Positions 15,268 through 33,763 of a stretch of 35,153 nt of DNA are shown one piece after another. The notes under the pieces are model-generated. The model ran no database searches, was not told where the DNA came from, and was given only the letters and a program-made list of their open reading frames with translations. Origin of the DNA: Candidatus Zhuqueibacterota bacterium (lineage in GTDB: Bacteria > Zhuqueibacterota > QNDG01 > JABMRT01); assembly GCA_013202295.1 (NCBI GenBank), contig JABMRT010000172.1, positions 1 through 35,153 of the forward strand, written 5' to 3'. Both the position numbers and the translations under genes were made by a program. Positions within the stretch are counted from its first letter, which is position 1. Each line of letters begins with the position of its first letter.

Positions 15268-15328
15268 GTGCTATCATCCTTCGATGCCATACAGGATGAA
15301 GTGAAATTTAATTATCAAGGATTTGAAT

Positions 15329-15976
15329 TTGCTCAGAGTATCCGACCTGAAGGTTGTGAAATCCAACAAATCCATTTTAGATGGGATTTCATTTACATTG
15401 AATCCAGGGGACCGTATGATCCTCTCCGGCGAATCGGGCAGTGGAAAGAGTACCTTGATTCGAAGCCTGCTTCTTTTCGAATCCTTAATCGCGGGTGAAA
15501 TTCGATGGCAGGATGAGTTGGTTGTAAGCCGCAACGTGCAGGAATATAGAAAACATTTTGTATATGTCGGCCAGAGGCCCCCGGCATTTGACGGGTCGGT
15601 GAGCGACTACATCCAATTGCCTTATTCGTTCCGGTTCAACTGCAGTGAGATGCCTTCCGAGCAAAAAATCTATGACGCTTTATCGCGATTTGATCTCTCT
15701 GAGGATGTCCTAAACCAATCCTACAGTGCGCTTTCTGGCGGCGAACAGCAGCGTGTCACCTTGATTCAGGGGCTGCTTCTTGACCGTCCTGTGCTTCTTC
15801 TGGATGAAGTGACTTCGAGCCTCGATCCTGCTAATGTGAATCGGGTTGTGGATTCAATCCTGGAAGATACGAAACAGATTGTCATTTCGGTCTCCCATCA
15901 GGATCGATGGCAGAAAGCCGGTGTTCTCTCCTATGCAATTCGGGAAGGCAAGCTGATACCGAAGGGGAGCGAATGA
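15329..15976 (+). CDS. fetA: ABC transporter ATP-binding protein, FetA-like
   Basis: About 216 residues. I choose TTG 15329 because AAGGA (15317-15321) lies seven bases upstream; TTG 15323, in the same frame, is too close to that site. Numbered from 15323, the ATPase has Walker A GESGSGKST (36-44), Q-loop Gln84, signature LSGGEQQR (137-144) and Walker B VLLLDE with catalytic Glu162. It is followed with ATGA overlap by a UPF0014/FetB membrane protein. The E. coli FetAB (YbbL-YbbM) pair has this arrangement and has been linked to iron export and resistance to oxidative stress. The name therefore rests on the partner as much as on the ATPase. Confidence 0.82.
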   Translation: MLRVSDLKVVKSNKSILDGISFTLNPGDRMILSGESGSGKSTLIRSLLLFESLIAGEIRWQDELVVSRNVQEYRKHFVYVGQRPPAFDGSVSDYIQLPYSFRFNCSEMPSEQKIYDALSRFDLSEDVLNQSYSALSGGEQQRVTLIQGLLLDRPVLLLDEVTSSLDPANVNRVVDSILEDTKQIVISVSHQDRWQKAGVLSYAIREGKLIPKGSE

Positions 15977-16761
15977 ACAGTACATTTGACATTGCAATCC
16001 TACGGCTTGGCGTGTTCTTGCTACTTTTCATCATTCCGCTGATTATCTTCCGTCTGTTGAATCTGAAGCTGTCCTCCAAGCTTCTGGTTGCGGTGATCCG
16101 CATGGTGATCCAGCTTTCACTGGTGGCCGTGTATCTTGAAACGCTTTTCCGCTGGAACCATCCTCTGATCAATGGACTCTGGATTCTGGTGATGATTTTT
16201 GTGGCCAATTTGTCCATCCTGAATCAAGCGGGGCTTACATTTCGCGCATTCGCACCCATTTGCCTCACTTCCCTTCTTCTGACAGGATCTGTCATCTACA
16301 CCAGTTTTTTAATCCTGATTGAGCCTGAAGTGCTCCTCAATTCCCGATACACCATACCGCTCATGGGTATGACGTTCGGCAACCTGCTTCGCGGAAACAT
16401 CGTGGCACTGAACCGATTCCATTCTGATCTACGTCAACGTGAGAATGAGTACATCCAGTGGATCGCATTGGGTGCAACCCGTATTGAAGCACTCAAACCA
16501 TTTTTCCGTAATGCCGTACAAGCCGCTTTGGCTCCGCAGATTGGCACGATTTCCACACTGGGCCTGGTTTCTTTGCCCGGCATGATGACGGGTCAGATTC
16601 TTGGCGGTTCTTCACCGGCCGTGGCCATTAAATATCAGATCATGATTATGACCGCGATTTTCACAGCGGTCTCGCTTTCGACATTTCTTTCCATCCGGTT
16701 TTCAATTCACACGTCATTCGATGATTTTGATCGGATTAAACCCGGTTTGATGAAGGATTAA
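15973..16761 (+). CDS. fetB: FetB-like membrane permease (UPF0014 family)
   Basis: 262 residues from ATG 15973, which overlaps the fetA stop as ATGA and follows GGGGAG. An upstream in-frame ATG at 15907 lies inside fetA and is unlikely. About seven hydrophobic helices cover most of the protein, beginning LRLGVFLLLFIIPLIIFRLL. Family features include the conserved stretch MGMTFGNLLRGNIVALNRF, followed by the REXEYIQWIALGATRIEALKPFFRNAVQAAL region and LVSLPGMMTGQILGGSSPAVAIKYQIMIM. UPF0014 proteins pair with a single ABC ATPase. E. coli FetB takes part in iron homeostasis; the substrate here is inferred. Confidence 0.88.
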   Translation: MNSTFDIAILRLGVFLLLFIIPLIIFRLLNLKLSSKLLVAVIRMVIQLSLVAVYLETLFRWNHPLINGLWILVMIFVANLSILNQAGLTFRAFAPICLTSLLLTGSVIYTSFLILIEPEVLLNSRYTIPLMGMTFGNLLRGNIVALNRFHSDLRQRENEYIQWIALGATRIEALKPFFRNAVQAALAPQIGTISTLGLVSLPGMMTGQILGGSSPAVAIKYQIMIMTAIFTAVSLSTFLSIRFSIHTSFDDFDRIKPGLMKD

Positions 16762-16762
16762 C

Positions 16763-17188
16763 ATGATAAAAAATAGATATTTCAAGTTTGTCCCAATCGG
16801 GATTATGCTCATCTTCACCGGATTTCATTGCACCTATCCGGATATGGGCGCACCGCGGCCTCGAAACACACGGCCCAGCCGTGCGGTTCGCGTGTTTACG
16901 GGCAAAGCATCCTATTACGGTCCCAAGTTTCATGGCCGAAAAACTGCGAACGGAGAGACCTTTGATCAGCATGGATTGACCGCTGCGCATAAAACGTGGC
17001 CTTTCAATACGGTTTGCCGCGTCACCAATCGATCTAACAACAAGCAAGTGACAGTCCGCATCAACGATCGTGGGCCTTTCGTGGCCGGTCGGATGATTGA
17101 CTTGTCCTATGGCGCAGCCAAAGCAATTGACGGTGTCATTGAAGGCGTAATGGATGTTAAAATCGAGATCCTAAAATGGGGAGAATAA
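16763..17188 (+). CDS. rlpA: RlpA-like double-psi beta-barrel protein
   Basis: 141 residues. The N-terminus is hydrophobic (residues 7-22) and ends in TGFHC, a possible lipobox with Cys23. The DPBB domain covers about 43-140: GKASYYGPKFHGRKTANGE, FDQHGLTAAHKTWPFNT, VRINDRGPF, RMIDLSYGAAKAI. These match RlpA, a lipoprotein of the cell envelope that in Pseudomonas is a lytic transglycosylase acting on denuded peptidoglycan at septa. The C-terminal SPOR domain found in many RlpA proteins is absent, so septal targeting would need another route. It starts one base after the fetB stop, so translation is probably coupled. Confidence 0.88.
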   Translation: MIKNRYFKFVPIGIMLIFTGFHCTYPDMGAPRPRNTRPSRAVRVFTGKASYYGPKFHGRKTANGETFDQHGLTAAHKTWPFNTVCRVTNRSNNKQVTVRINDRGPFVAGRMIDLSYGAAKAIDGVIEGVMDVKIEILKWGE

Positions 17189-17214
17189 ATTCATATAATA
17201 GGGGACTTGGAATC

Positions 17215-18597
17215 ATGAAGACATTATTCGTTCTTTTCATGGTATGTTTAATGATGTGCAATGTATCTGCTGGACAGAAGTCCTTTAAGCCGAATTGGAA
17301 ATCGCTTGATGCGCGTTCCACACCGGAGTGGTTTTTAGATGCCAAATTCGGGATCTTCATCCACTGGGGCGTATATTCTGTGCCCGCGTTTGCACCCAAA
17401 GATGTCAGTGTCTATGCACGCTACGCCGAGTGGTACTGGAACCGACAGATGTCACCCGACATGGAAGGCCATGAGTCCTTCAAAACTTTTCATGATCGAG
17501 TTTATGGTCCTGATGTTCAATACCAAGACTTTGCCACACAGTTCAAGGCTGAGATGTTTGATCCCAATGCCTGGGCGGATCTGTTCAAACGGGCAGGTGC
17601 CAAATACGTGGTCCTAACCAGCAAACATCATGATGGATTCTGTCTCTGGCCGAGCCCGCATAGTTGGAACTGGAACGCAGTCGATGCGGGCCCGCATCGG
17701 GATTTGGTTGGCGACCTTTCCAATTCAGTCAAAGCAGCCGGAATTCAGATGGGATATTATTTTTCAATGTATGAGTGGTTTAATCCGCTCTATCATTCCA
17801 GCTTGTCTGAATACATCGAGACACATATGTGGCCCCAGCTTAAAGATCTGGTTACACGGTATGAACCTGCTGTGGTCTGGTCCGATGGCGAGTGGGATCA
17901 TCCCAGCGCAGCTTGGAAAAGCCCTGAATTTCTGGCCTGGCTTTATAATGAATCGTCTGTCCGAGATTTTGTTGCTGTAAATGATCGATGGGGCAAAGAG
18001 ACTCGCGGAATCCACGGCGGATATTATACGACTGAATATAGCCTGGTTCATGATAAAGAGGTCTCTGATGAGGGTATTCAGCATCCCTGGGAGGAATGCC
18101 GAGGGATTGGCCATTCGTTTGGTTACAATCGGGCAGAGACTCTTGAGGATTACTCCACAGCGAAAGATCTCATTCATCTGCTGGCGGATCTGGTCAGCAA
18201 GGGTGGGAATCTGTTGCTCGATATCGGTCCCACAGCGGATGGACGAATTCCTGTGATTATGGAAGAGAGGTTGTTGCAGATCGGTGCCTGGCTGGATCTG
18301 AATGGCGAGGCCATTTACGGTACACGGCGCTGGAGAGTCCAAAAAGAAAATGATAGTGTGGTTTATACATCCAAGGGATCGGATGTGTATGCGATATGCC
18401 TTGAATGGCCGGGATCGGTTCTAACGCTTCAACATCCAAAGCCTTCATCAGAATCTAAGATTTTACTGCTTGGTGTTCAAGATCCATTAGAATGGAAGAA
18501 AACTGAGACGGGTATTGAGATTCAAATTCCCGATGCATTGTTACGGGAGATGACTGTGAATCATGCGTGGGTCGTAAAATTATCTAATATTCAATAA
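17215..18597 (+). CDS. Secreted alpha-L-fucosidase, GH29
   Basis: 460 residues from ATG 17215, which begins a signal peptide (MKTLFVLFMVCLMMCNVSAG). An in-frame ATG at 17176 overlaps rlpA and would place 13 polar residues before the signal. GH29 features: PEWFLDAKFGIFIHWGVYSVPAF (38-60), FDPNAWADLFKRAGAKYVVLTSKHHDGF (115-142), MGYYFSMYEW (179-188), and VVWSDGEWD with Asp224 as nucleophile candidate. Then GNLLLDIGPTADGRIP, typical of the family's C-terminal catalytic region. GH29 enzymes release L-fucose from glycans by a retaining mechanism. This one is probably periplasmic or secreted. The following HAD and kinase-aldolase genes, 31 and 19 bases apart, may process the released sugar. Confidence 0.92.
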   Translation: MKTLFVLFMVCLMMCNVSAGQKSFKPNWKSLDARSTPEWFLDAKFGIFIHWGVYSVPAFAPKDVSVYARYAEWYWNRQMSPDMEGHESFKTFHDRVYGPDVQYQDFATQFKAEMFDPNAWADLFKRAGAKYVVLTSKHHDGFCLWPSPHSWNWNAVDAGPHRDLVGDLSNSVKAAGIQMGYYFSMYEWFNPLYHSSLSEYIETHMWPQLKDLVTRYEPAVVWSDGEWDHPSAAWKSPEFLAWLYNESSVRDFVAVNDRWGKETRGIHGGYYTTEYSLVHDKEVSDEGIQHPWEECRGIGHSFGYNRAETLEDYSTAKDLIHLLADLVSKGGNLLLDIGPTADGRIPVIMEERLLQIGAWLDLNGEAIYGTRRWRVQKENDSVVYTSKGSDVYAICLEWPGSVLTLQHPKPSSESKILLLGVQDPLEWKKTETGIEIQIPDALLREMTVNHAWVVKLSNIQ

Positions 18598-18628: not shown

Positions 18629-19384
18629 ATGATAGAAGCTGTTCTATTTGACATTGACAACACATTAATCTTGTTTGATGAAACGAAGTTTTTTGAGGCG
18701 TATATCTCGAAACTCACTCCGGTCTATGTAGACGTATTCAGTCCAGAAGAATTTTACAAGCGGCTGATCGGCGGATCACGAGCGATGCTTCGTAACAACG
18801 GACAGAAATCCAACGCCGATTATTATATGAATACTTTTTGTCATGGCATGGGAGAAAAACGCGAGGAGTTCTGGAACCGTTTTGAGCGGTTTTATGATAC
18901 GGAATTTGATGCGTTCTCCGATCTAGTCACTCCGATTGAAGGAGTGTCCGAAATATTTAATGAGATCCATGAAATAGGACTGAAGATAGTGATTGCCTCT
19001 CATCCATTATGGCCAGAGCGTGTTCAGCAGATTCGACTCAACTGGGCTGGTTTGGATGGTTTTCCATATGACTGGATCACGCACATTGAAAACACTAAAT
19101 ACTGTAAACCGCAGGTTGAGTATTATCAAGAAATATCCGATAGCATTCAAATTCCCCCTGAAAAATGTTTGATGGTGGGCAATGATCCAGTGAATGATAT
19201 GGTGGCCGGACTGGCTGGAATGAAAACCTATCTTGTCACGGATGCGAAAGAACAGGGATTTGAATCCTTTCCCATGTCGCAGGAAATTCGCGAACAGGTA
19301 CATCAACCGATCCCCAATCCTGATTTCACCGGATTGCTTTCCGATGTTCCGTATGTCGTTGCCAAGCTGTTATCCTCCTCATGA
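18629..19384 (+). CDS. HAD superfamily hydrolase
   Basis: 251 residues. HAD motifs: I, LFDIDNTL with nucleophile Asp8 and acid/base Asp10; II, IASHP with Ser123; III, Lys159 in CKP; IV, GNDPVNDM with Asp185 and Asp189. A helical cap covers roughly 17-100. The fold class matches small-molecule phosphatases such as phosphoglycolate-phosphatase-like enzymes; the substrate is unknown. A GGAAA-like site precedes ATG 18629. Its place between the fucosidase and the kinase-aldolase fusion suggests that it dephosphorylates a pathway intermediate, but this is inference. Confidence 0.88.
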   Translation: MIEAVLFDIDNTLILFDETKFFEAYISKLTPVYVDVFSPEEFYKRLIGGSRAMLRNNGQKSNADYYMNTFCHGMGEKREEFWNRFERFYDTEFDAFSDLVTPIEGVSEIFNEIHEIGLKIVIASHPLWPERVQQIRLNWAGLDGFPYDWITHIENTKYCKPQVEYYQEISDSIQIPPEKCLMVGNDPVNDMVAGLAGMKTYLVTDAKEQGFESFPMSQEIREQVHQPIPNPDFTGLLSDVPYVVAKLLSSS

Positions 19385-19403: not shown

Positions 19404-20963
19404 ATGCATAAATACAAGACACATGTTGAGACCAAGGAGCGCATCCAAGCCGGGCGGCCGGTTGAATCCCTGGTGGCAGAGCTTATCCAAACGGTGTATC
19501 GTGACCATTCCAAACCTGTAATCATCGCTGTGGGTGGGCCTGGAGGGACGGGGAAAACCACTTTCAGCGGAAAACTCGCGGATCACTTGGAAGACGCTGC
19601 TGTGCTTAATCTCGATCATTATAAAACTCCTCGGCAGGATCGTGTTGAGAGTAAGCTGTACGGCTCCCATCCCGACGCGAATCATATGGCCCTGATTCAC
19701 GAGCATCTGGCTAGTATCCGGTCTGGCAAGTTGTTCGAATCCCCTGTATATAATGATACAACGGGTATTGCTGATACACAGCAATCCTATCACCCGAAAC
19801 GGTTTAATGTACTCGATGGTGAAATTTCCGTCTATCGTGAGTTCCGTGATTTAATCGACTTCACGATTTTTATTGATTCGGACTGGAAAACACAGCTTAA
19901 CACCCGACTTTTCCGTGATATTCAGGACCGTGGATACTCCCGTGAAAAGGTGATCCAAATATTTTTACAAAGCAATTTGAAGGATTTTGAACAGTATGGG
20001 GCCGAGGCGAAGAACTGGGCGGATGTGCATCTCTATTGTGAATCGGATTACAGAATCACTGTGGAATCCGTCTCCAAGGAGTTGTATGAGCGATTCGAGA
20101 ACCTGTTCTCCACTGATCTGAAGACCGTGGATTTGTCGGGATTGATTGTTCCTATCCTCACACCGTTTGATGATCAGGGCGGGATCTACCGTGAAAAGTT
20201 TATCGAACACCTTGAGTTTCTGGCGCATCACGGCGTGCATCGCATCCTCGTATGCGGAACCACGGGTGAATTCTTTTCCCTAACTTCTGAAGAAAAACGG
20301 CTTTTACTTCGGCTGACCCGTTCTTACTTCCCTGGAGTCATTTTATATCTCGCAGGTGCCGAGAGCTTGGTTGGTACTTTAGAACAGATTCAATGGGCGG
20401 AAGAAGATGGCGCGGATGCGGTCCTTGTGCTGCCTCATTATTATTTATCCGGTCTGTCCGCTCAGAACCTCGCAGTCTATCTCACCAGGATTTCCGAAAA
20501 GACATCCCTTCCTCTAATCCTATATAATTTCCCAAAATATACCGGGAATTCACTCACGCCGGAAATTCTGTCACAAGTTACCCATTTTGGCGTGAAAGAT
20601 TCCTCCGCAAATCTTGACCTGTTATCACACACGCCCAATTATTTTATGGGTGGTGATTCGAAGATTCTGGAATCGCATCGTCTTGGCGGCAAGGGATTCT
20701 TCAGTGCCCGGGCCAATGTGTTTCCGGCTCTATTCATGGAGATGGAAAAGGCATTGCGTTTCGATCCTAAAGAAGCGAAGACCATCCAGCAGAAGATTAA
20801 AACGTTATCTGGAAAAATGGGGCGAGGTCATGAAATCCCCGAGCTCAAAGCGGTGATGCCATTGAGTGTGCCTGGCTATCCTGTTTCACCCAGGCTGCCA
20901 TTACTTGCTGTTTCTGATGCAGATAGGGAGAAGCTGCAAACGGCTGTTAAAGCACTGAAATAA
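19404..20963 (+). CDS. Fusion of uridine-kinase-like P-loop kinase and DHDPS/NAL-family aldolase
   Basis: 519 residues in one uninterrupted frame. Residues about 18-235 form a P-loop kinase of the uridine kinase/phosphoribulokinase type: Walker A GPGGTGKT (45-52), LNLDHYKTP with Asp71 in the usual acidic position, and the family-like PVYNDTTG, FIDSDWKTQLNTRLFRDI and YSREKVIQIF segments. Residues about 243-519 form a class I aldolase barrel of the DHDPS/NAL family: GLIVPILTPFD, GTTGEFFSLT (285-294), ILYNFPKYTG with Tyr374, and GVKDSS with Schiff-base Lys398. The Arg that follows YNxPS in true DapA is replaced by Tyr379, so lysine synthesis is unlikely; a 2-keto-acid or sugar-acid aldolase is more likely. 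The fusion is unusual. ATG 19404 has a weak ribosome site. Confidence 0.88.
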   Translation: MHKYKTHVETKERIQAGRPVESLVAELIQTVYRDHSKPVIIAVGGPGGTGKTTFSGKLADHLEDAAVLNLDHYKTPRQDRVESKLYGSHPDANHMALIHEHLASIRSGKLFESPVYNDTTGIADTQQSYHPKRFNVLDGEISVYREFRDLIDFTIFIDSDWKTQLNTRLFRDIQDRGYSREKVIQIFLQSNLKDFEQYGAEAKNWADVHLYCESDYRITVESVSKELYERFENLFSTDLKTVDLSGLIVPILTPFDDQGGIYREKFIEHLEFLAHHGVHRILVCGTTGEFFSLTSEEKRLLLRLTRSYFPGVILYLAGAESLVGTLEQIQWAEEDGADAVLVLPHYYLSGLSAQNLAVYLTRISEKTSLPLILYNFPKYTGNSLTPEILSQVTHFGVKDSSANLDLLSHTPNYFMGGDSKILESHRLGGKGFFSARANVFPALFMEMEKALRFDPKEAKTIQQKIKTLSGKMGRGHEIPELKAVMPLSVPGYPVSPRLPLLAVSDADREKLQTAVKALK

Positions 20964-21133: not shown

Positions 21134-21847
21134 ATGCATTTAGAATCCATACGACTTCATCCGGATCAGTATCCCACGCAGGATGCGTATCCATTCAATC
21201 TTCCACTTTTTCGCGACACAGGAGATGTACATTTCCGTACGCCCATTACATTCTTTATCGGTGAGAATGGAAGCGGCAAATCCACATTGCTTGAAGCAAT
21301 CAGCCGCAAGTGCCGGATTCATATTTGGGGGGAATCCAAATGCAGGAGGGCGCGATATAATCCCCATGAGAAAACCCTTCACCAATATCTTACCCTTCAA
21401 TGGAAAAACGGCAAGGTGCCCGGTTCATTCTTCGGATCCCAGATATTTAGTCAATTTGCTGAATTGCTGGAAACCTGGTCCATTGGCGATCCGGGGGTGC
21501 TGGATTATTTCGGAGGAGAGTCTCTGGTTACACAGTCACACGGGCAATCATTGATGTCCTTTTTCCAGAACCGTTTCGGAATCAAAGGATTGTATCTTCT
21601 CGATGAACCTGAAACCGCGTTGTCTCCCAAAACCCAATTGATCTTTTTAAAGATGCTCGGTGAGATCAGCAAAGAGGAGCACGCACAATTTGTCATAGCA
21701 ACCCATTCACCGATTCTTTTAGCCCTTCCGAATGCGGATATCTATTCCTTCAATGATTCCAGTCTGAAAAAAATCCAGTACGAAGAGACTGATTACTTCC
21801 GGGTATATAAAGAATTTATGTTAAATCGTGAGAAATTTTTATCCTGA
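21134..21847 (+). CDS. Predicted AAA/ABC-type ATPase (COG3910-like)
   Basis: 237 residues. Single ABC-ATPase-like domain of the RecF/SMC-related group: Walker A GENGSGKST (43-51), a short signature-like SHGQSL (135-140), Walker B YLLDEPE (154-160) and switch His in ATHSPILLALP. The sequence between Walker A and the signature is short, with no long coiled coil, so this is not an SMC or Rad50. COG3910-type stand-alone ATPases are widespread but uncharacterised; some relatives belong to OLD- or RloC-like defence proteins, but no nuclease or toxin partner is visible here. The last 9 bases overlap the convergent flippase-like gene. Confidence 0.85.
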   Translation: MHLESIRLHPDQYPTQDAYPFNLPLFRDTGDVHFRTPITFFIGENGSGKSTLLEAISRKCRIHIWGESKCRRARYNPHEKTLHQYLTLQWKNGKVPGSFFGSQIFSQFAELLETWSIGDPGVLDYFGGESLVTQSHGQSLMSFFQNRFGIKGLYLLDEPETALSPKTQLIFLKMLGEISKEEHAQFVIATHSPILLALPNADIYSFNDSSLKKIQYEETDYFRVYKEFMLNREKFLS

Positions 21848-33118: not shown

Positions 33119-33763
33119 ATGAATTCAACTTCCGTTCAAAATCAGGATGAAGCCCGACGAATCCAACGAATGCAGCGTTTCGAACACCGATTGTGGAGAA
33201 GCGGTATCCAATATATCGCGGGTGTAGATGAAGCGGGAAGAGGCCCTCTGGCCGGACCGGTTGTGGCTGCTGCTGTCATTTTCGCAAAGGATTCGTTCAT
33301 CCCTTATATTAACGATTCAAAGAAGTTAACCGCGATTCGGCGAGAACGGTTATTTGATCAAATCCAGGATGAAGCAGTTTGTATCTCTGTCGGGCTGGTG
33401 ACCTCCAAAGAAATTGACCAGATCAATATCCTGCGGGCCACCCATCGGGCCATGAAAAAAGCAGTTGAGTCGCTTGATTATCCACCAGAATTTGTTTTGA
33501 TCGACGGCACACTAGCTCCTCAATTTTCTCGTCCCAGTCGAGCGATTGTGGGCGGTGATCGAAAATCCTATTCCATAGCGGCAGCCTCTATCATCGCAAA
33601 AGTCACAAGAGACAGAATGATGGCTGATTATAACGCGACCTATCCCCGTTATGATTTCGCGAAAAATAAGGGGTACGGTACTCGTAAACATGTCGAGGCA
33701 TTGCGAGAGTACGGTCCCTGTCCGATTCATCGAACCAGCTTCCAGGTCTTGGGGTGGCAATGA
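33119..33763 (+). CDS. rnhB: Ribonuclease HII
   Basis: 214 residues. Type 2 RNase H that removes ribonucleotides embedded in DNA. Motifs: YIAGVDEAGRGPLAGPVV with Asp37 and Glu38, NDSKKL, ATHRAMKKAV, FVLIDGTLAP with Asp129, and KSYSIAAASIIAKVTRDRMM. The C-terminus has YDFAKNKGYGTRKHVEAL, then GPCPIHRTSF. Basic N-terminal extension of about 30 residues. The stop overlaps the yraN start as ATGA. Second RNase H of the window beside rnhA at 14527. Confidence 0.97.
   Translation: MNSTSVQNQDEARRIQRMQRFEHRLWRSGIQYIAGVDEAGRGPLAGPVVAAAVIFAKDSFIPYINDSKKLTAIRRERLFDQIQDEAVCISVGLVTSKEIDQINILRATHRAMKKAVESLDYPPEFVLIDGTLAPQFSRPSRAIVGGDRKSYSIAAASIIAKVTRDRMMADYNATYPRYDFAKNKGYGTRKHVEALREYGPCPIHRTSFQVLGWQ

Follow-up and report, generated by a model that had tools for sequence, protein, structure and literature searches.

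A rare, conserved fusion of a PRK-like P-loop kinase and a class I pyruvate aldolase in several bacterial groups

In the window, that is, the whole 35,153-nucleotide stretch of DNA analysed here, a preliminary description had recognised a frame joining a P-loop kinase to a DHDPS/NAL-type aldolase, two families that normally occur as separate proteins. Fusion of two enzymes is often a sign that their reactions are linked. The questions raised by this locus are whether the joined gene is real, what each half does, and whether the two halves act in one pathway. Both halves come from well-studied families, but their joint architecture, which occurs in distant groups, is apparently undescribed.

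Integrity and occurrence of the fused gene

The gene was confirmed as a single intact frame of 519 codons, open from ATG to stop, and the Walker A motif, Tyr374, Tyr379 and Lys398 were all located where the preliminary description had placed them (Table 1). Pfam recognised both families far above their cut-offs, namely, PF00485 (PRK) at residues 40–209 (E 8e-19; 68.6 versus 22 bits) and PF00701 (DHDPS) at residues 244–517 (E 7e-39; 133.7 versus 22.1 bits), and the catalytic residues of both halves were intact. The whole 519-residue protein was modelled with AlphaFold2 on a 31-row alignment, giving a mean pLDDT of 90.6 and a pTM of 0.72; both domains were well defined, and confidence was lower near residues 1–20 and just N-terminal to the barrel. 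The gene start, MHKYKTHV, was conserved among the fusion homologues. By alignment and model, one chain is shown to carry two domains predicted to be well folded, with complete catalytic motifs, in a fusion conserved over several bacterial groups.

Table 1. Features of the fused gene and its upstream neighbours, with positions in the window.
Feature	Position	Strand	Evidence
Alpha-L-fucosidase, upstream on the same strand	17176..18597	+	PF01120
HAD-family hydrolase, separated by 19 bases from the fusion ATG, perhaps co-transcribed	18629..19384	+	PF00702
Fused gene, P-loop kinase and class I pyruvate aldolase	19404..20963	+	Open frame; full-length homologues in several phyla; AlphaFold2
N-terminal motif M-H-K-Y-K-T-H-V, conserved; predicted short strand	19404..19433	+	Alignment; DSSP of model
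Kinase domain, about residues 36–225, PRK/uridine-kinase family	19509..20078	+	PF00485; phmmer; Foldseek of kinase-only model
Walker A GPGGTGKT, residues 45–52	19536..19559	+	Sequence
Asp71, predicted catalytic base (CrPRK Asp57)	19614..19616	+	Invariance; alignment to 6kev; PMC9978339
Linker, residues 226–243, in frame	20079..20132	+	Alignment of fusions; pLDDT about 77–89
Aldolase domain, residues 244–517, (beta/alpha)8 barrel, DHDPS/NAL superfamily	20133..20954	+	PF00701; Foldseek
Proton-relay Tyr374 through Tyr379, the latter at the DapA Arg138 site	20523..20540	+	Alignment
Schiff-base Lys398 through Ser400, the latter at the HOGA Ser198/KDGA Thr157 site	20595..20603	+	Alignment; PMC3188589, PMC9486944

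It had been cautioned that a frame error near 20110–20130 might have joined two neighbouring genes. As full-length homologues with the same domain order and an in-frame linker were found in independent, unrelated assemblies from several phyla, the junction was judged to be intact, and an assembly or frame error, in favour of which nothing was found, was rejected.

In-frame fusions at other loci were 45–60% identical to the window protein, some of them being cut by contig ends, and their carriers belonged to Planctomycetota, Verrucomicrobia/Kiritimatiellae, Melioribacteraceae, Chitinivibrionales and the window's own family. A contig scan of 84,980 species returned at least 12 relatives, which is a lower bound because exact eight-residue patterns were required. 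The names of their MAGs pointed to Planctomycetota, Verrucomicrobia, Kiritimatiellae/Pontiella, Melioribacteraceae, Chitinivibrionales and Lentisphaeria. The whole-length fusion was present in eight of the 12 (L003–L009 and L011); L010 starts within the kinase, and L012 and L013 are cut within the barrel, in each case at a contig edge. The twelfth, L014, has a decayed barrel and is described below. A further fusion was carried by another member of the window's own family (G002; L015/L114; 60% identical), and three more (L111–L113) by the Kiritimatiellae-type class. The preliminary description had allowed that the architecture might turn out to be common. In samples of larger groups, the fusion was present in 2/294 genomes from the phylum of G147, 7/240 from the Kiritimatiellae-type class (the class of G154) and 1/245 from the class of G152; two of the 12 genomes in the window's class carried it. 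The fusion is therefore rare yet conserved across several distantly related bacterial groups. No paper on the fusion was found in the open-licence literature, a scope that could miss a subscription-journal description or an InterPro architecture note; the preliminary description likewise was aware of no described pathway using it. Two known families are here combined in a new way, and the architecture is apparently undescribed.

Active sites of the two halves

The C-terminal half was assigned to the class I Schiff-base pyruvate aldolases of the DHDPS/NAL type from PF00701, T286, T287, E289, Y374, K398 and the fold, which upheld its earlier description as a complete aldolase. The barrel matched DHDPS, YagE, Sulfolobus KDG aldolase and human HOGA in Foldseek (TMt mostly 0.82–0.87), with KDG aldolases among its nearest solved structures. 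In NCBIfam, the dapA and archaeal KD(P)G aldolase models were the joint best for the barrel with equal scores, neither half of the protein reached a curated cut-off, and none of the 40 gathered sequences of the aldolase subfamily exceeded a named enzyme's cut-off where checked. The relay tyrosine lies in YNFPKH in 32 of the 40 subfamily barrels, in YNFPRH in four, and in YNFPKY in the window protein. Lys-Asp-Ser, that is, Ser at Lys+2 (Ser400 in the window protein), was found in 39/40. The site of DapA Arg138 is His in 38/40 and Tyr379 in the window protein, and the subfamily has Phe376 where Sulfolobus KDGA has Tyr132.

These positions are informative in characterized enzymes. In HOGA, Ser198 at Lys+2 binds the substrate 4-hydroxyl, whereas DHDPS has Ala163 there and uses Arg138 to bind its second substrate (PMC3188589); in Sulfolobus KDGA, Thr157 at Lys+2 binds the substrate 4-OH and Tyr132 meets the 5-/6-hydroxyls (PMC9486944). 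Because Ser400 occupies Lys+2 and the arginine site is Tyr379 (His in the subfamily), the sequence argues for a 4-hydroxy-2-oxoacid aldolase rather than a lysine enzyme. Lysine synthesis had already been considered unlikely from Tyr379, and DapA was rejected on this residue (His in the family), on Ser400 and on TIGR00674 (121 versus 206 bits); moreover, most fusion genomes have a separate DHDPS-type gene of 27–31% identity. Two other candidates fell below their cut-offs, namely, an archaeal KD(P)G aldolase proper (NF040954, 121 versus 390 bits) and N-acetylneuraminate lyase (NF003164, 58.8 versus 281 bits; TIGR00683, 44.5 versus 382 bits).

The N-terminal half had been called uridine-kinase-like. 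Its place in the PRK/uridine-kinase P-loop family held, with PF00485, Walker A and invariant K51 and D71, but phosphoribulokinase was the nearer model (NF005655, 1.4e-32, versus 5.5e-24 for uridine kinase). Gly45, Gly47, Gly48, Gly50 and Lys51 were invariant across 23 kinases. The best PDB match by phmmer was phosphoribulokinase 6kev (1.2e-23), and a kinase-only model (pLDDT 92.9, pTM 0.90) matched cyanobacterial PRK, UCK2, Thermus UK and PanK (pantothenate kinase) in Foldseek. In the catalytic dyad of phosphoribulokinase, the base Asp57 works with His105 (PMC9978339). Counting 48 residues on the 6kev alignment, the dyad equivalents are Asp71, which is invariant, and Asp118, which is variable in the family. 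Aligned in this way, the kinase is PRK-like but without a defining catalytic residue. Phosphoribulokinase proper was rejected on Asp118 at the dyad His site and on NF005655 (113 versus 236 bits), and uridine kinase proper on NF004018 (84.8 versus 180 bits) and TIGR00235 (76 versus 220 bits). Arg77, Arg80, Arg168, Arg171 and Asp172 are kept in the kinase. More distant stand-alone kinases (L106, L108, L109, L116, L117 and L118), 34–40% identical, share the invariant D71/R77/R80/R168/R171/D172 set and point to a wider uncharacterised kinase family.

History and genomic context of the subfamily

In a barrel tree of 66 rows, the aldolase half formed its own subfamily on one side of a 100/99 branch, with YNFP[KR]H plus KDS as its hallmark; the other DHDPS-type proteins compared were at most 34% identical. 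Stand-alone aldolases of this subfamily were found in about 27 relatives, comprising about 26 genomes in the class of G154 (38–49% identity; that of G569 lies in two overlapping frames) and G007. A close stand-alone kinase was present in two genomes of the same class (L104 and L105; 43–45% identity), and the stand-alone aldolases and these kinases reside in different genomes. Fusions and stand-alone aldolases interleave in the barrel tree, with seven changes by parsimony, at least two of which are forced by strongly supported branches. The earliest-branching row is a fusion (L008), at a fork without strong support. As stand-alone aldolases nest among fusions, the fusion is probably old, with repeated loss of the kinase, and the aldolase would seem to function without it; on the barrel tree, repeated gain of the kinase may be the explanation instead. 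In the kinase tree, L104 and L105 fall into one group with the kinases of the fusions (82/94), separate from the more distant stand-alone kinases, and a single change suffices for the fusion label in 71% of bootstrap trees.

No convincing kinase remnants were found 5' of the stand-alone aldolases, the sole match (E 0.006) falling inside another gene. One kinase-less relative from the window's order (L115, a longer fetch of L016) begins MMSSQKMKTHVQVNLSGLIVPL, with the KTHV motif directly before the barrel, as expected if the kinase had been deleted in frame. The reverse case occurs in Lentisphaeria (L014:7989-9188), where the kinase is intact and the barrel is decayed and truncated, lacks GTTGE and ends before the Schiff-base Lys region; by its sequence, this would be a naturally occurring form in which only the kinase half persists and the aldolase has decayed.

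The occurrence of the halves in different genomes and the intact kinase of L014 would also suit two uncoupled activities, the kinase serving another reaction, with a nucleoside or a pentose as its substrate for instance, and oligomer assembly or regulation being the reason why the fusion is kept. However, the fusion is conserved at 45–60% identity over several phyla, and the kinase lacks the phosphoribulokinase catalytic His and lies far under the uridine-kinase cut-offs; uncoupled activities are considered unlikely.

The same history bears on the order of the reactions. Kinase and aldolase are successive steps in the semi-phosphorylative Entner–Doudoroff pathway. The kinase could act first on a 2-keto-3-deoxy sugar acid (e.g., KDG to KDPG), which its own barrel would cleave to pyruvate and glyceraldehyde 3-phosphate on one chain. 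The tie of the archaeal bifunctional KDG/KDPG aldolase model with dapA as the best match of the barrel supports this order, and the retained Arg and Asp residues of the kinase would suit an anionic substrate. Against it, the kinase was apparently lost repeatedly while the aldolase stayed, the stand-alone aldolases have no adjoining kinase remnant or kinase partner except in L115, Phe376 replaces the KDGA tyrosine, and a classical KDPG aldolase (PF01081) is present in 13/16 fusion genomes. A kinase-first order was thus given a low probability. Likewise, the PF01081 count did not support the fusion as a replacement for the classical KDPG aldolase. PF00920 dehydratases were present in 17/17 genomes checked, which is uninformative because the family includes IlvD.

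The two upstream neighbours in Table 1 were not conserved beside other fusions in the neighbour comparison. Neighbour clustering over 53 loci found no shared pathway partner, the only shared neighbours being lineage-level synteny inside Kiritimatiellae-type genomes. With no neighbour shared by the fusions as a whole, gene context does not single out a pathway. The fusion in L003 lies near rhamnose genes, but a fucose/rhamnose link drawn from this locus and the window was rejected because it was not repeated at other loci. The fusion in L007 stands amid sugar-nucleotide and glycosyltransferase-like genes, as judged by eye. The DHDPS family includes condensing enzymes, and with such neighbours the barrel might condense pyruvate and an aldehyde to a 3-deoxy-2-keto acid, the kinase preparing the aldehyde or modifying the product; the outcome would be a storage or cell-surface compound and not breakdown. 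However, with Ser at Lys+2 and no DapA Arg, the barrel resembles the members that cleave (PMC3188589), and the neighbour genes vary with no pattern; a synthetic direction is regarded as very doubtful.

Several other arrangements were recorded around the loci. In L006, the frame of an amino-acid permease that bears a PTS EIIA-2 domain at its C-terminus (PF00324 and PF00359; 6062-7987) ends immediately upstream of the conserved fusion start. In the window, a short (237 aa) SMC/RecF-like AAA ATPase (21134-21847) lies immediately downstream of the fusion. At 15323-16761, the frames of a FetA-like ABC ATPase and a FetB-like UPF0014 permease overlap by about 70 bases as called, and the true start of the FetB-like frame may be further downstream. 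Also encoded are an RNase HI whose N-terminus carries a Cauli_VI domain (PF01693; 14527-15267) and a separate RNase HII (33119-33763).

In L115 (6250-8219), the kinase-less aldolase overlaps a glycerate kinase gene (PF02595, 2.4e-132) by 4 bases. Across the Kiritimatiellae-type class, glycerate kinase was present in 118/240 genomes, including 16 of the 26 with a stand-alone aldolase and all seven with the fusion. This corresponds to 23/33 genomes with either form versus 95/207 without (Fisher p 0.014) and, for fusion genomes versus the rest, to a Fisher p of 0.006; both tests were made post hoc after L115 and ignore shared ancestry and MAG incompleteness, so the association with the subfamily is suggestive only. 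As 14/16 fusion genomes already have PF02595, the fused kinase is not simply a substitute for the genome's glycerate kinase, and the link is uninformative on the substrate of the fused kinase.

Proposed reaction and comparison with known enzymes

The fused protein probably works as a bifunctional enzyme in sugar-acid metabolism. In the preferred reading, to which we assign a probability of roughly 0.4, an unphosphorylated 2-keto-3-deoxy sugar acid is cleaved and the kinase acts on the released aldehyde or on an acid made from it. Lys398 would form a Schiff base with the 2-keto group of the 4-hydroxy-2-oxo acid, and the barrel would release pyruvate and an aldehyde. Less certainly, the kinase, with Asp71 as base, may use ATP to phosphorylate this aldehyde or the derived sugar acid, so that the phosphorylated fragment would enter central metabolism. 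The kinase would be accessory; after its loss the aldolase would be kept, with separate kinases such as glycerate kinase perhaps stepping in. Cleavage followed by phosphorylation is favoured on two grounds, namely, the persistence of aldolases that have no kinase and the pairing of one of these with a glycerate kinase gene. Of the two options in the preliminary description, phosphorylation of the released aldehyde fits separable halves better than an obligatory kinase-first order. Against this reading, the glycerate-kinase link consists of one operon-like pair and a co-occurrence uncorrected for shared ancestry, and the classical KDPG aldolase is also found in 13/16 fusion genomes. The substrate-specific residue set of a known enzyme was not matched in the fusion protein. 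It is proposed only tentatively that in this undescribed enzyme aldol cleavage of one specific sugar acid is coupled to phosphorylation of the fragment set free. Planctomycetota/Verrucomicrobia-type and Bacteroidota/Fibrobacterota-type bacteria would then possess a new branch of sugar-acid breakdown, from which the kinase half would have been discarded several times. Assays on the fusion could name the substrate of the whole orphan aldolase subfamily (40 sequences), and the apparent repeated loss of the kinase offers a built-in comparison on whether coupling matters.

Compared with known systems, the barrel shares its fold, GTTG, YN.P, the Lys motif and a hydroxyl residue at Lys+2 with the archaeal KD(P)G aldolases (Sulfolobus KDGA, PDB 1w37/2nuw); unlike the fusion, these have no kinase attached and carry Tyr132 where the fusion has Phe, and the fusion lies far under the NF040954 cut-off. 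Human 4-hydroxy-2-oxoglutarate aldolase (PDB 3s5n/3s5o) shares the fold, the Lys/Tyr relay and the Ser at Lys+2, but is 26–28% identical and has no kinase, and the fusion has Thr at its Asn78 site and Tyr/His at its Asn173 site. DapA shares the superfamily, Schiff-base Lys, Tyr and Thr-Thr, whereas the equivalents of its Arg138 and Ala163 are replaced in the fusion barrel. For the kinase half, uridine/uridine-cytidine kinases share the fold, the P-loop and an Arg-rich lid region. Phosphoribulokinase of the cyanobacterial/plant type is the closest in kinase sequence and shares the fold and the catalytic Asp, but the fusion kinase is without its C-terminal part and its dyad His.
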